In this document: in pieces, positions 784-17,437 of the stretch
How the letters are laid out: every line of letters starts with the position of its first letter
Numbering within the stretch: position 1 is the first letter of the stretch
Source of the DNA: Desulfococcaceae bacterium
GTDB lineage: Bacteria > Desulfobacterota > Desulfobacteria > Desulfobacterales > Desulfosalsimonadaceae
Direction of reading: 5' to 3'
NCBI GenBank assembly: GCA_030145385.1
Contig: JAQYVU010000009.1
Coordinates: 1 to 64,000 of the forward strand
DNA length: 64,000 nt
The notes under the pieces: generated by a model
Seen by the model: only the letters and a program-made list of their open reading frames with translations
Database searches by the model: none
Told to the model about the DNA's origin: nothing
Position numbers and translations under genes: made by a program

Positions 784-1269
784 ATGACAAGCAAGATGAC
801 ATTTTGGGGTGTTGGTCCTAAGTACACTTTATTTTCAGCGGTATATTGCATTTTAATGGTTTCCTTAAGTTGGTATTTTGATCCATTTTTCAAAATACAT
901 TTTGTTTCGTATGGCGTATTAGCCACGCTTGCATCCATCCTGATTCTAATAGGAATTCCATTTTATATTATTTCTTTAGTCACCATAAAACGCGCTTTTG
1001 CAGCAGGGCGTCTTGTTACTGAAAAAACCTTTGGAATGTGCCGTCATCCTGTCTATTCAGCATGGATAATCTTTTTTGTGCCTGGGATTATGCTTTTAAT
1101 GAATACCTGGATTGGCTTATCCGCACCACTGGTGATGTATTTTTTGCTCCTGAAATTAGTTGAGAAAGAAGAGCTATATTTAGAGAGTGCTTTTGGCAAT
1201 GAATATTTGGCGTACAAGGAAAAGATTCCCACTGTATTGCCTGTCGGTTGGTTGAAATCAAAAGTATAA
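784..1269 (+). CDS. ICMT/PEMT-family membrane methyltransferase
   Basis: This 161-residue integral membrane protein has about four hydrophobic segments. Its C-terminal half carries the signature of the isoprenylcysteine carboxyl / phospholipid methyltransferase superfamily: GRLVTEKTFGMCRHPVYSAW (residues about 78-97), then EKEELYLESAFGNEYLAYKEKIP near the end. In the family the RHPxY segment and the C-terminal Glu/Tyr region bind S-adenosylmethionine. The substrate cannot be told from sequence; bacterial members act on lipids or unknown small molecules. The gene stands alone, with no tight neighbour. Confidence 0.8.
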   Translation: MTSKMTFWGVGPKYTLFSAVYCILMVSLSWYFDPFFKIHFVSYGVLATLASILILIGIPFYIISLVTIKRAFAAGRLVTEKTFGMCRHPVYSAWIIFFVPGIMLLMNTWIGLSAPLVMYFLLLKLVEKEELYLESAFGNEYLAYKEKIPTVLPVGWLKSKV

Positions 1270-1496
1270 CCAGCGATCATAGCCGATAGGTTGCCAGGCA
1301 TTACAGTAATTTTGCCGTTTAACAATTTCTCATTGTTTAATCGATAGCCAATGATTCTTATAGTTTAATGGTTTTGTTTTTTGTGAAACGTACTCTTTGA
1401 TGATTAAGTGTTATTGGTAATGTTCAGATACAGAAACCGGCGTAAAAAAAACAGCTATTGCTTAGAAAATAAAGTGAAAATTGGATGTAGAAAAAA

Positions 1497-9899: not shown

Positions 9900-12455
9900 A
9901 TGAATGATTGCAAACCGGTTTTTAGATTTTTCAGACTTTTTGTTCTGGCTGGCCTGTTTTTTTCTGGGGGGCTGATGCTGTCCGGATGCTCTGATTTTAT
10001 GGATTTTACGCTAAGAAACACCGTTGATCCGGATATCGGTTCCATTGCCGTTGCCGGCATTGACGAAGAAGTGGTCATCCGGCGGGATGATCTGGGGGTA
10101 CCTGTCATCGAGGCCAAAAACTTTCAGGACCTGGCATTTGCAACCGGATATGTGATGGCATCCGACCGACTGGCACAGATGATATCATTGTCGCTGCTGG
10201 GGCAGGGGCGCCTGTCTGAAATGGCCGGCGATATTGCGCTGGATATGGATGTTTATGTGCGAACATTGGGTGGTGCCGATGCTGCAAGGCAGGAGTATGC
10301 AAGCCTGAATCCGGATATTAAAAAAGCCCTGGAGGATTTTTCAGCCGGGGTCAATGCCTATATCAGAACCCATGAAGACAGACTGCCCATGGATTTCATG
10401 CTCACAAGATATTCGCCTGAACCCTGGGAACCGGTCAATTCGCTGTATATTGTCAATGTCTATAATCTGGGCCTGTCGTTTAATCTGTCAGAAGAAATCA
10501 ACTACCTCAACATAGCCAAAAAAATCGGTCCAATGAAATCCGCCTGGCTGATCCCGATTTACCCGGATGAGCCGCTTGGTTTTGAAAAAGCAAAAATACT
10601 TGAAACCGTTGCATGGGATTCGGTAGGCGATGCCGCAAGCCTTCTGGCATCGGTTCATGATCAATTGAATCGGGTCATGATACCGCTGGGAACGCCTGCT
10701 TCTAATAACTGGGGGATCGCGCCGGCCATGACGCGCCGGCAGAAAAGTATTATTGCCAATGATACGCATCTGCCCCTGGAACAGCCATCCTTGTGGATGC
10801 TTATTCATATGAAATCACCGGGCCTTGACGCCGGCGGAATTGCCATTGCCGGGGTGCCGGGAATTGTCGCCGGATATAACGGCCATATCGCCTGGGGCGA
10901 AACCATGGTGATGGGTGACAACCAGGATATTTTTATTGAAAAGATCAAAAAGATTGACGGCAGAACACATTATCTTTATCAGGACGCCTGGTATCCGGTT
11001 GAGCAGCGAAAGGAAACATTTAAGGTAAAAGATGGAAAAGATGTTGTTCGCACCGTTTATACCACCCGGCACGGTCCCTTATTGAATTCAGCTCTGAAAA
11101 ATGAGCTGAAGAATGTGGCGCTGCCGGCAAAAATCGATTCAGGGTATGGTCTTGCTCTGCAATCGATGGCAACCTGCCCGGGACAGTTGTTTGACGGTAT
11201 GTTTCAGTTAATGCGGTCAACGGATATGGATGCCGCGCATCAGGCTATTCGAAAGATCAGGGGCATGGCGCTGAATTTTATCTATGGGGATGCGGACCGG
11301 ATTGCCTGGCAGGTGAGCGGAAGATACCCGCTGAGGAAATCAGGCCGGGGGCATCTGCCGTCACCCGGATGGACCGGGGAGTTTGACTGGACAGGATATG
11401 TGGATCCGGATGATCATCCATATGAGCATGATCCTGTTCAGGGATATCTTTTAACGGCCAATCACCGGACAGTGACGCCGGATCAGGATTTGGTTTTGTC
11501 CTCTTCCTGGTATTCTCCGGAACGGGCTGAACGCATAGAAACAATGATCCGGCAAACTGAAAAACATACCTGGGAGGATTCCGCAGCTATGCACAAAGAC
11601 CGGGTGGATCCTTTTTTTGAAAAATTTAAACATGCGGTTTTTCACCCGGACTTCATAGCAGACGTCCGGCAAATAATCGATTCATGGGAAAACAGCCGAA
11701 AAATGGCAAGGGCTGATGAGGCGCTTATCATTTTAAAAGGTTTTGACGGGAATATGCTGCCGAATTCCGCAGGAGCGGCGGTATACAGTATTTTCCGCCA
11801 TGAGTTTATCCATAATGTTTTTAAAGATGAACTGGAAGGAGAAGAAAGCAATGCCTGGAAAAATTTCATCTCCATGATCCAGGCAATTTACCCCGCAGAC
11901 CAGGACCATTTGATCGGGCGGGCAGACAGCCCTTTATGGGACAACGTTGAAACCGGGCATGTCGAAACCAGGGCGGAAATCATTGCCGATACCATGGCGA
12001 AAACCATATCAACCGCAGAGCAGGTGATGGGCAAAGACCGAGAAAATTGGGCATGGGGCAGTCTTCTGACGTATTCCTGGCAGACGCAGACCACCCGGAT
12101 GAAAGAATTTCTGCCTGCATTTGATCGTTTTGCCGTTGGCATGCTTGCCGGTTATACAGACAGGGGCCCTTACCCGGCCGGAGGGAATTACAATACCTTA
12201 AATGTGAGCGGGTTTCACAAGGGGGCTGACTTTAATGTGTGGCTGGTTCCGGCAATGCGTATGATTGTGGATTTCGGTCTGGATGAACCCATGATGCTCA
12301 CCAACAGCGGCGGTCAGTCCGGTAATCCGGCCAGTGATCACTATGATGACGCGATTGACGTCTGGTTAAATAGTGAGACAAGGTCTATGCCGTTTGGCGA
12401 TGAAAATATCAGGAAACAATATGACCGGGTTTATATATTAGCACCGAAACAGTGA
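9900..12455 (+). CDS. Penicillin acylase family (Ntn-hydrolase) lipoprotein
   Basis: This 851-residue precursor belongs to the penicillin G/cephalosporin/AHL acylase family. The N-terminus has a signal peptide with lipobox LSGC (Cys about 30). The alpha part follows, then the autoprocessing site before Ser268 in PASNNWG, the nucleophile generated by self-cleavage. YNGHIAWGET and a C-terminal NSGGQSGNPASDHYDD segment are also family marks. It hydrolyses amide bonds of acylated compounds, likely at the cell envelope. Lipid anchoring is less usual in this family. Substrate is unknown; N-acyl-homoserine lactones or acyl amino acids are possible, the latter suggested by the neighbouring M20 enzyme. 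Confidence 0.9.
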   Translation: MNDCKPVFRFFRLFVLAGLFFSGGLMLSGCSDFMDFTLRNTVDPDIGSIAVAGIDEEVVIRRDDLGVPVIEAKNFQDLAFATGYVMASDRLAQMISLSLLGQGRLSEMAGDIALDMDVYVRTLGGADAARQEYASLNPDIKKALEDFSAGVNAYIRTHEDRLPMDFMLTRYSPEPWEPVNSLYIVNVYNLGLSFNLSEEINYLNIAKKIGPMKSAWLIPIYPDEPLGFEKAKILETVAWDSVGDAASLLASVHDQLNRVMIPLGTPASNNWGIAPAMTRRQKSIIANDTHLPLEQPSLWMLIHMKSPGLDAGGIAIAGVPGIVAGYNGHIAWGETMVMGDNQDIFIEKIKKIDGRTHYLYQDAWYPVEQRKETFKVKDGKDVVRTVYTTRHGPLLNSALKNELKNVALPAKIDSGYGLALQSMATCPGQLFDGMFQLMRSTDMDAAHQAIRKIRGMALNFIYGDADRIAWQVSGRYPLRKSGRGHLPSPGWTGEFDWTGYVDPDDHPYEHDPVQGYLLTANHRTVTPDQDLVLSSSWYSPERAERIETMIRQTEKHTWEDSAAMHKDRVDPFFEKFKHAVFHPDFIADVRQIIDSWENSRKMARADEALIILKGFDGNMLPNSAGAAVYSIFRHEFIHNVFKDELEGEESNAWKNFISMIQAIYPADQDHLIGRADSPLWDNVETGHVETRAEIIADTMAKTISTAEQVMGKDRENWAWGSLLTYSWQTQTTRMKEFLPAFDRFAVGMLAGYTDRGPYPAGGNYNTLNVSGFHKGADFNVWLVPAMRMIVDFGLDEPMMLTNSGGQSGNPASDHYDDAIDVWLNSETRSMPFGDENIRKQYDRVYILAPKQ

Positions 12456-14459: not shown

Positions 14460-14555
14460 AAAATTATAATAATTCCTCATTAAAATAAATAGTTGTATTT
14501 ATTTTTCTAATCCGATGAGCTTGTTTTAGTTTTCGGTCCGGAAAGGGAGGAGTGT

Positions 14556-14996
14556 ATGGTGTCTCGTCAATGGCTCTTAATTATAGTATGTCTTTAGATG
14601 ACAGCTTGTTTTTGTATTCTCTCTTGTAGTGAGAAAAAAGAAGGTAAGGTTACTGGTACGGAAAGTGAGTTTGTGGTTCGACAGGATTCTGATAACGCTT
14701 ATGCGACTGATGCCAAAGGCAAGATAAAGAATGTGGGTGAAGTTGATGTGAAACAGTCAGTCGTCACCGGATACTGCAGGTCCTGAGGGGAATTGATTAA
14801 TCCCGGCAACTGGTTTGTGTCGGAGTATGAAAAAACTCCTGACCAGAAAGATAACATCAGATACCTGGCGGTGGAGGCTGAAGAAGAATTCAGTTTCAAG
14901 GGAGTTGCTTTTATCTATAATACAGTCCCTGAGAGATTTGAAACCATTCCGGAAAATCTGGAAATTGTTATTGCGTCATTCAAAACCGTACAATAA
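14556..14996 (+). pseudogene. First tandem lipoprotein paralogue, with in-frame TAG and TGA
   Basis: From ATG 14556, behind a strong GGGAGG, one continuous frame encodes the same family as the next four genes: VCL, stop, MTACFCILSC lipobox region, EKKEGKV, then KGKIKNVGEVDVKQSVVTGY, CRS, stop, GELI...W, and a terminal ENLEIVIASFKTV. Codon 14 is TAG (14595-14597), where the next paralogue has Leu. TGA (14784-14786) stands exactly where the paralogues have the second Cys of CxxC. Both are one base from sense codons and no frameshift exists, so inactivation is recent or one stop is recoded. A restart at 14598 would lose part of the signal peptide. Confidence 0.8.
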
Positions 14997-15080: not shown

Positions 15081-15536
15081 ATGAGACATTGCTCCCATCG
15101 AATGACGGCAATCGCCTGCCTGATGACCGCATGCCTTTGTATTTTTTCATGCAAAACGGCAAAAGAGGAAAAAAAAGGCAGCCTGTCAATTACTGATACG
15201 GAATATAGTATTCGGCAGACACATGAAAATTCTTATGTCCTGGATGCGTGCGGAAAAGTAAAAAATGTGGGTGACGTTGATGTCAAAAAAGTGGTAATCA
15301 CCGCTTACTGCAAGTCTTGCGGTGAGGCAATGATAAGTGAAAATTGGTTTATATCGGATTGTGAAAAAACCGAAGAACAGAAAGATACCGTCAGTTATCT
15401 GGCCATAGGCGGAGAAGAAGAGTTCAGTTTCAAAGAAGTTGCATTCTATTTTGGTCCGGCCGATTTCCAACCGGACAAGTTTCCCGAAAAAATTGAAGTA
15501 GTCATAGAGTCATATGATGCTGTTGAAGATATTTAA
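15081..15536 (+). CDS. Small lipoprotein, tandem family copy 2
   Basis: This 151-residue member of the array has a signal peptide with lipobox-like FSC. A hydrophilic Lys/Glu linker follows, then one beta-rich domain: CGKVKNVGDVDVKKVVITAY, CKSC (Cys77, Cys80), a W, EKTEEQKD, EEEFSFKEVAFYF and the terminal EVVIESYDAV. The G.[VI].NVG.VDVK pattern recalls FxLYD-type domains, which are extracellular beta modules of unknown function; that link is weak. AAAAGGAG precedes the ATG. Likely anchored in the envelope facing the periplasm or outside. Confidence 0.82.
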   Translation: MRHCSHRMTAIACLMTACLCIFSCKTAKEEKKGSLSITDTEYSIRQTHENSYVLDACGKVKNVGDVDVKKVVITAYCKSCGEAMISENWFISDCEKTEEQKDTVSYLAIGGEEEFSFKEVAFYFGPADFQPDKFPEKIEVVIESYDAVEDI

Positions 15537-15633: not shown

Positions 15634-15738
15634 ATATGTAAATCGAGATTTGATTTTTGAGTTTTTTTGGTATATTAATTTGACCAATTTGAATGACGTA
15701 TAAATTTTATGATTTTGTTTTCAGGAGGTATTTTTTCT

Positions 15739-16185
15739 ATGTTTTTTTATAAGCGTATGGCGGCAATGATTTTGTTTTTATTGATTGCATGCCTTTGTTT
15801 TGCAGCCTGTGGTGAGAAAAAAGAAGGCAAGGTAATTATTACGGAACAGGAATTCAGTATTCGGCAGGACGCGGAATACAACTGGGTGGTCGATGCAAAG
15901 GGTAAGATCAGGAATGTCGGTGATGTTGATGTGAAAAAAGTGGTTGTCACCGGCTACTGCCGCTCCTGCGGTGATGTCCTGTCTGCAGGGATATGGTTCA
16001 GAAATAATGTCGAAAAAACATCGGAACAGAAAGATGTGATCAGTTACCTGACCGCCGGAGATGAAGAAGAATTCAGTTTTCGGGAACTTGCATTTTATTT
16101 TATGCCGGGCGGCCCGGGGCCGGAAGGCAAGATGCCGGATAACCTGGAAGTCGTTGTTGAATCTTTTGAAACCGTTGACGGTTAA
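15739..16185 (+). CDS. Small lipoprotein, tandem family copy 3
   Basis: The product is about 148 residues. The ATG at 15739 follows AGGAGGT; an upstream in-frame ATG at 15709 would put the Shine-Dalgarno inside the gene. Signal peptide and lipobox FAAC are followed by GEKKEGKVIITEQEFSIRQD, then the family core KGKIRNVGDVDVKKVVVTGY with CRSC, EKTSEQKD, EEEFSFRELAFYF and a terminal EVVVESFETV. It has a Gly/Pro-rich insert (GGPGPEGK) before the last strand. It is the closest to the family consensus. Confidence 0.83.
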   Translation: MFFYKRMAAMILFLLIACLCFAACGEKKEGKVIITEQEFSIRQDAEYNWVVDAKGKIRNVGDVDVKKVVVTGYCRSCGDVLSAGIWFRNNVEKTSEQKDVISYLTAGDEEEFSFRELAFYFMPGGPGPEGKMPDNLEVVVESFETVDG

Positions 16186-16373: not shown

Positions 16374-16817
16374 ATGAAATCTTGTCAGCGGCTAATAATA
16401 CTCATTTTGACAATAGTCCTGAGCCTGAGTTTAATCGCCTGTGAAAAGAAAAAGCAGGGCAAGGTTGTAATTACCGAGCAGGAGTTTGTTTTAAGGCAGG
16501 ATAAAGAAAATCAATATACAATTGACGCAAGGGGCAAAATCAGAAATGTCGGTGAAGTGGATGTCAAAAAGGTGATTGTCACCGGTTACTGCAGATCCTG
16601 CAGTGAATTATGGATTGTCGGTCAATGGGTGATTACGCCGGAAATTGAAAAAATGCCCTATCAGAAGGATATCATCAGCTATATATCTGTCGGAAATGAA
16701 GAGTCATTCAGCTTCAAAGAAATCGCAGACATGTTATTGCGAGCTGATCAAAAATCTCCGAACTTGCCTGAAAAGCTGGAAGTCGTCATCGAGTCCTTTG
16801 AAACCGTGGAAGAGTAA
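16374..16817 (+). CDS. Small lipoprotein, tandem family copy 4
   Basis: This 147-residue protein has a signal peptide and lipobox LIAC, then KKKQGKVVITEQEFVLRQD and the family core GKIRNVGEVDVKKVIVTGY with CRSC, W, EKMPYQKDIISY, ESFSFKEIA and terminal EVVIESFETV. AAAAGGAG lies upstream of the ATG. It is separated from copy 3 by about 190 AT-rich bases and from copy 5 by 110, so each copy may have its own promoter. Function unknown. Confidence 0.83.
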   Translation: MKSCQRLIILILTIVLSLSLIACEKKKQGKVVITEQEFVLRQDKENQYTIDARGKIRNVGEVDVKKVIVTGYCRSCSELWIVGQWVITPEIEKMPYQKDIISYISVGNEESFSFKEIADMLLRADQKSPNLPEKLEVVIESFETVEE

Positions 16818-16927: not shown

Positions 16928-17437
16928 ATGAAGATTTCTTCTCGATTTTTACTGCTAACCAGTTGTTTTTCGATGATGGTTTTATGCCTGGTTGCCTGTG
17001 AAAAGAAAAAAGAAGCTAAGCTTGAGGTGACACAACAGTCGTTTACGTTGCGTCAGTTCAGTGATAATGGATGGACAATCGATGCAACCGGAAAAATAAA
17101 AAATGTCGGTGAGGTGGATGTCAAAAGAGTGGCCGTTACCGGTAAATGTAAAACCTGCGTGCAGGTGTGGGTTCCGCAAAAGTGGTTTGTTGCCACTGAA
17201 AGTGAAGATATCAGTGTCTCGGACAAGGAAGAGATTGTTGAGTCCATCGGGGCTGGTGACGAAAAATATGACTTTGACCAGGTCGATGTCATCGGATATA
17301 TTTCAGCAGGAAATGAAGAAGCGTTTCAGGCCAAAGAAATTGCGTATTTTTATACTCAGTCTGCCGATCAGGAGCCGGATCCAATGCCGTCTGAACTTGA
17401 CATAATCATCAAATCTTTTGAAACAGTTGATAAATAA
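16928..17437 (+). CDS. Small lipoprotein, tandem family copy 5 with internal insertion
   Basis: At 169 residues this is the longest and most divergent copy. Lipobox LVAC is followed by EKKKEAKLEVTQQSFTLRQ and the core GKIKNVGEVDVKRVAVTG with CKTC. After the conserved Trp an extra stretch of about 20 residues (IVESIGAGDEKYDFDQV) resembles the following IGYISAGNEEAF segment, as if that strand-loop unit had been duplicated. It ends DIIIKSFETVD like the others. It converges on the CoA-ligase-like gene with only 4 bases between the stop codons. Confidence 0.8.
   Translation: MKISSRFLLLTSCFSMMVLCLVACEKKKEAKLEVTQQSFTLRQFSDNGWTIDATGKIKNVGEVDVKRVAVTGKCKTCVQVWVPQKWFVATESEDISVSDKEEIVESIGAGDEKYDFDQVDVIGYISAGNEEAFQAKEIAYFYTQSADQEPDPMPSELDIIIKSFETVDK

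Follow-up and report, generated by a model that had tools for sequence, protein, structure and literature searches.

The first gene of a five-gene array of small CxxC lipoproteins, predicted to be Ig-like, is very probably a recently inactivated duplicate, that is, a fresh pseudogene. The array lies in a window of 64,000 nucleotides (the whole stretch of DNA analysed, positions 1 to 64,000 of contig JAQYVU010000009.1 of the Desulfococcaceae assembly GCA_030145385.1). Its features are the following.

14545..14552, + strand: GGGAGGAG, likely ribosome-binding site of copy 1 (read directly)
14556..14996, + strand: copy 1, small-lipoprotein gene, very probably inactivated; 147 codons including the final TAA, two internal stops
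14595..14597, + strand: TAG, codon 14 of copy 1, within the signal peptide (translation and alignment)
14598..14600, + strand: ATG immediately 3' of the codon-14 TAG (read directly)
14784..14786, + strand: TGA, codon 77 of copy 1, at the second Cys of CxxC (alignment)
15081..15536, + strand: copy 2, intact (ORF list, five-copy alignment)
15739..16185, + strand: copy 3, intact (aligned start 15739; the listed ORF begins at 15709)
16374..16817, + strand: copy 4, intact (ORF list, five-copy alignment)
16928..17437, + strand: copy 5, intact, with a longer insertion in its second half (ORF list, five-copy alignment)

The sequence-only reading from which the analysis started had described a TAG and a TGA in a frame otherwise intact over about 440 bases. 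This was confirmed: the translation of copy 1 (14556-14996) runs from an ATG at 14556 through the 147-codon frame to its own TAA, with no frameshift and no indel. Further frameshifts or deletions in copy 1, which had been named as evidence against the proposal, were not found. The alignment also agreed with the placement of the two stops. The codon-77 TGA aligns with the second Cys of CxxC in copies 2-5 (4/4), and the codon-14 TAG with Leu14 of copy 2.

The array locus is syntenic with a locus of Desulfobacteraceae bacterium isolate S12.Bin036 (loci L051/L079). In both, the array is flanked on one side by genes for a peptidase, a tyrosine-phosphatase-like protein and a small secreted protein, and on the other side by an acyl-CoA-ligase-like gene and an ABC transporter gene (names from translations). 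The S12.Bin036 array consists of four genes, versus five in the window, copy 2 being missing there. Outside the array, the window has an 851-aa gene (9900-12455) that separates the peptidase gene from the phosphatase-like one and is not present in the syntenic S12.Bin036 locus.

The frame of copy 1 is disrupted where that of its syntenic ortholog is intact. This ortholog shares 77% protein identity with copy 1 and has Leu and Cys at the two stop sites, each stop codon being one base away from the ortholog codon. A GGGAGGA ribosome-binding motif and the start position are common to the two genes. In the protein tree, copy 1 grouped with its positional ortholog (support 100/92) and not with its array neighbours; only the copy-1 subtree was used from this tree, in which the copy-3 row is out of frame (very long branch). 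Four further members of the copy-1 subtype are intact and carry CRSCGELINPGNW, those of G002, G009 and G001 and a paralog in the genome of the window itself (contig C28).

Ribosomes starting at the intact site of copy 1 would make a 13-residue peptide, and a restart at the ATG next to the TAG would give a 62-residue fragment with no usable signal peptide. As far as can be read from the sequence, a protein started at 14598 would lack a usable signal peptide: the basic n-region is absent, and few hydrophobic residues precede the lipobox Cys. No ribosome-binding site was seen before this ATG on direct reading. The TAG at codon 14 leaves no usable start whose frame stays open through the TGA, and we infer that no full-length copy-1 product would be made. 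The TAG had been taken to argue for simple decay; it cuts the signal peptide, and pylS was not found (see below), both of which count against recoding.

Among the matched stretches, internal stops are peculiar to copy 1. The 36 genomes searched in the taxonomic family, with its own genome among them, gave 107 such stretches in 32 genomes; stops were found in copy 1 only, and the other nine matched stretches of its own assembly had none. A class-wide search, which overlaps with the family set, gave matches in 28 of 291 genomes, with stops again only in copy 1; 27 of these 28 genomes belong to the same taxonomic family, to which the array family is almost confined. A scan with longer matches reported stops in copy 1, copy 4 and the C77 copy; for copy 4, this match took in bases 5' of the ATG, and with the shorter matches neither copy 4 nor the C77 copy showed a stop.

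It is improbable that the codon-77 TGA encodes selenocysteine (CxxU), through a lineage-specific Cys-to-Sec change, with the TAG bypassed by the restart ATG or due to later inactivation. Such a reading has to explain away both the upstream TAG, which removes the signal peptide, and the lone TGA. The TGA does fall exactly on an invariant Cys, and the part of copy 1 downstream of it is still well conserved. Yet the relatives, in which TGA or Cys was to be looked for according to the sequence-only reading, gave Cys throughout. In an alignment of 50 copies in all (the remaining matched stretches, including a close copy-1-subtype one, G008:C18, 71%, were assessed from their match rows), the TGA column holds Cys in 49 of the 49 other members. 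Copy 1 keeps nine of the ten columns that are invariant among these 49 rows, and the tenth is the TGA. No Sec-bearing (TGA) homolog was found among the 107 stretches in 32 genomes, nor among the matches in 28 of the 291 class genomes.

The capacity to decode UGA is, on the other hand, on the side of selenocysteine. The genome assembly measures 5.24 Mb in 209 contigs, with 97.04% completeness and 4.23% contamination. It contains a tRNA-Sec gene (selC, 75.1 bits versus a cut-off of 47; ARAGORN agrees) and selA (610.7 bits). The selD gene has an in-frame TGA and is apparently split over two contigs (C68/C112; L074, L073), and three of the seven FlpD family matches in the genome also have an in-frame TGA (contigs C193, C144 and C51; L097-L099). 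These three FlpD genes and selD are probable selenoproteins of this genome. The selB gene, however, was not found in this assembly, which counts against a selenocysteine in copy 1: all TIGR00475 matches were below the cut-off, the two strongest being EF-Tu-like by translation, and SelB-wing_3 gave none. Nine of ten other genomes of the same genus have a selB match that passes the cut-off and is close to full length, the tenth having partial matches only. Because selC, selA, selD and TGA-bearing FlpD genes are present, and selB is found in nine of ten same-genus genomes, the genome very probably does decode selenocysteine, and the lack of selB is probably an assembly gap.

The search for selA, selB, selC and pyl genes that had been proposed from the sequence alone was thus answered positively for selC and selA, and negatively in this assembly for selB and pylS. 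The best pylS match in the 97%-complete assembly scored 33.6 bits versus a cut-off of 178.15, and pyrrolysine at the codon-14 TAG was rejected on this ground. A genome-wide reassignment of TGA or TAG was rejected too, because both serve as ordinary stops: the 34 window ORFs of at least 250 aa (mechanical ORFs, some perhaps spurious) end with TAA in 14 cases, TGA in 10 and TAG in 10.

Two hairpins downstream of the TGA were considered as SECIS elements.

14788..14804, + strand: hairpin pointed out by the sequence-only reading, 2 bases after the TGA, weak
14803..14823, + strand: second hairpin, loop UGGUUU, spacing 24 nt, roughly fits the SECIS model

The bacterial SECIS model, as given in the accessible part of its description (PMC13188914), has 16-37 nt between UGA and loop, a G within the first two nucleotides of the loop, a loop of 3-9 nt, a stem of 4-16 bp and an MFE of -7.5 or lower. 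The first hairpin exists as described, but it is weak (-2.9 kcal/mol) and no better than dinucleotide shuffles, 144 of 200 being at least as stable. Only some 5 nt separate the UGA from the start of its loop, where the model as described there (PMC13188914) asks for 16-37 nt. It was rejected as a SECIS, being too near the UGA and no better than shuffles.

The second hairpin is the better candidate, with its loop 24 nt after the UGA and an energy of -6.9 kcal/mol (hairpin-only energies were computed with our own script, not with bSECISearch), or -8.4 in an RNAfold run on the 47-nt stretch, versus the model limit of -7.5. At the in-frame TGA sites of the genome, the best fitting hairpins had -13.3 for selD and -11.6, -4.7 and -4.5 for FlpD, values reached by 6, 2, 53 and 24 of 100 shuffles, respectively. 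By the standard SECIS model, the hairpins at two of the three FlpD sites are no more than weak, and the copy-1 value of -6.9 beats both, a point for selenocysteine. However, comparable or better hairpins are common where no selenocysteine is encoded: -6.9 was reached by 18 of the 49 Cys-encoding members (49 of the 50 aligned rows, copy 1 being left out as the test case), by 34 of 200 shuffles and by 20 of 100 in a second set, and -7.5 by 15 of the 49 Cys members and 24 of 200 shuffles. The loop letters UGGUUU stem from Trp-Phe codons. A different, weaker hairpin (-4.6) gives the best fit in the syntenic Cys ortholog. The SECIS prediction that had been called for thus yields a roughly fitting hairpin, yet the hairpin scan does not separate copy 1 from Cys-encoding relatives or from shuffles, nor does it set two of the genome's own in-frame TGA sites apart from shuffles.

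The nature of the protein also bears on the question. The intact ortholog reads as a lipoprotein-type sequence, with a signal peptide and a lipobox Cys. AlphaFold2, run on 17 family sequences, gave a confident six-strand model (mean pLDDT 90.4, pTM 0.74). Its best solved-structure matches by VIA-align had Z scores of 7.2 or lower, where a Z under 8 may mean just a common arrangement, and were mostly single glycoside hydrolase domains plus an archaeal fusexin domain, which we take to be Ig-like. Foldseek gave no match with an E of 0.001 or lower. From the model, the family probably consists of lipoproteins with an Ig-like beta-sandwich. The CxxC ends the third predicted strand (strand 65-74; Cys74, Cys77). 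In an Ig-like lipoprotein it would form a structural disulfide or bind a metal, and would less likely be a thioredoxin-like active site. Such a fold does not favour selenocysteine, and no thioredoxin-like fold was among the matches listed for the model, although one may occur beyond them.

No named family was found with support in Pfam, NCBIfam or PHROGs. Among the matches listed for six window sequences, no family passed the curated cut-off, DUF2393 reaching 13-14.7 bits versus 26 in three of them. Among the matches listed for the 17 members, the first member had none over the cut-off, and the others had best E-values of 0.0022 or weaker; FxLYD appeared in one of the 17 with an E-value of 0.038. 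No PDB sequence match had weight (best E 0.47). Among the matches listed in a literature search by title and abstract, none was about this lipoprotein family.

In its complete form, the selenocysteine alternative supposes a very recent Cys-to-Sec change in an extracytoplasmic Ig-like lipoprotein, in one lineage of a Cys-only family, with a chance hairpin acting as SECIS and with expression cut by the TAG-ATG restart or already lost. The chance that all of this holds is slight. If true, copy 1 would represent a Cys-to-Sec change at its very start.

Another improbable explanation is that one or both stops are metagenome consensus errors, the gene of the organism being intact. The state of the assembly (209 contigs, 97.04% completeness, 4.23% contamination) leaves room for it, and each stop is one base from the ortholog codon in a frame whose remainder is well conserved. 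However, two independent substitution errors would be needed within 441 bases, and the nine other matched stretches of the assembly have no internal stops.

Under the pseudogene reading, the age of the inactivation can be examined. Differences between copy 1 and its ortholog numbered 18, 14 and 66 at codon positions 1, 2 and 3. Codon tests were done on seven of the 50 copies, with the topology assumed from the protein tree and, in the branch omega fits, the two stop codons of copy 1 treated as missing. Omega was 0.135 on the copy-1 branch versus 0.127 elsewhere (p = 0.88), so no relaxation was seen, and omega = 1 along the whole copy-1 branch was rejected (p = 1.6e-5). When the ortholog branch was given an omega of its own, copy 1 came out at 0.173, the ortholog at 0.044 and the rest at 0.141. 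Copy 1 was under purifying selection until recently. Its inactivation, if real, is young, given the third-position bias, the omega without relaxation, the nine of ten invariant columns kept and the absence of indels. An ancient pseudogene was rejected, since omega = 1 on the whole branch is refuted and the frame and nine of the ten invariant columns are kept.

In a further, two-part model, the branch ends in a neutral stretch and the stops count as data. The best fit was obtained with some 15-22 neutral substitutions (lnL -2386.4 and -2386.3), versus lnL -2399.4 with practically none; the optimum is flat, with 10 and 29 substitutions within 0.5 of it. When the stops were masked, a neutral tail of 15-22 substitutions cost 0.8-1.5 lnL. 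A tail of this length accounts for both stops, which would both have arisen late. The other six subtype members agree at 64 positions, and copy 1 departs from them at eight of these, one of the eight being the stop, whereas five other subtype members leave 1, 2, 2, 4 and 2 of 57-60 fixed positions and the most distant sixth leaves 15 of 71. This is a weak excess of departures at subtype-invariant positions.

The coincidence of the TGA with a conserved Cys is mildly striking, not strong. A count over all 1314 single-base changes of the intact ortholog gave 62 that make a stop; six of these turn Cys into TGA, one of them at codon 77. With six of 62 stop-making changes of this type, a TGA on a Cys is unremarkable in a gene free to decay.

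Rearranged or damaged members of the family were observed in other genomes. In G004, of the same genus (L057, G004:C32, 1960-2403, minus strand), a single gene stands at the array locus, with a copy-1-type signal peptide and a copy-3-type body, a hybrid that apparently arose by recombination between array copies. A member in G011 (L103, G011:C53, about 949-1368, minus strand) changes frame in its middle, CxxC region included, and returns to the original frame further on; either sequence errors or two shifts that compensate each other would produce this. Fragments are found in G007 (L104, G007:C39, about 1003-1110) and G008 (L105, G008:C61, about 979-1152), apparently relics of lost copies.

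That the broken copy 1 is a silent cassette feeding sequence to its intact neighbours by recombination is hardly credible: the tandem array and the G004 hybrid suggest that copies recombine, but copy 1 groups with its positional ortholog rather than with its neighbours, and nothing seen indicates phase variation.

We thus favour a fresh pseudogene, and the decayed family copies elsewhere (frame-disrupted in G011, fragments in G007 and G008, the hybrid in G004) were counted for it. The array would grow, shrink and recombine in a birth-and-death process, in which copy 1 would have gained two nonsense substitutions while the C28 subtype gene and the four neighbours stayed intact. Its loss was probably tolerated because four other array copies and, on C28, another intact member of the subtype are present; redundancy, we infer, allowed it. 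Of the two readings left side by side at the outset, a fresh pseudogene with a double nonsense is therefore supported and a partial recoding is not, though the genome very probably has the selenocysteine decoding that the latter presupposes. Chance alone can place a TGA on a conserved Cys, with a passable SECIS-like hairpin behind it, in a decaying duplicate of a Sec-decoding genome, which calls for caution with similar cases. For copy 1, the ortholog comparison and the second stop separated selenocysteine from decay, and the SECIS scan could not.

Several known systems can be compared with copy 1. Deltaproteobacteria using both Sec and Pyl exist, according to the accessible part of the report (PMC8318568); this genome resembles them, as far as described there, in belonging to a related group and in its very probable Sec decoding, and differs in that no pyrrolysyl-tRNA synthetase was found here. 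Bacterial selenoproteins with CxxU have Cys homologs, in the parts of the sources available (PMC1088965, PMC1794560). On that description, copy 1 shares with them an in-frame TGA aligned with a conserved Cys, and its genome very probably decodes Sec. It differs in being a single instance with no TGA homolog found, in its upstream TAG, in a candidate SECIS that does not stand out from background and in its Ig-like predicted fold.

Bacterial pseudogenes formed by nonsense mutation in tandem paralog families are a case of birth-and-death evolution. Copy 1 has in common with them an otherwise intact frame, an intact syntenic ortholog, redundant paralogs and decayed copies in relatives. The one difference is that a conserved Cys is hit by one of its stops while the genome very probably decodes selenocysteine.
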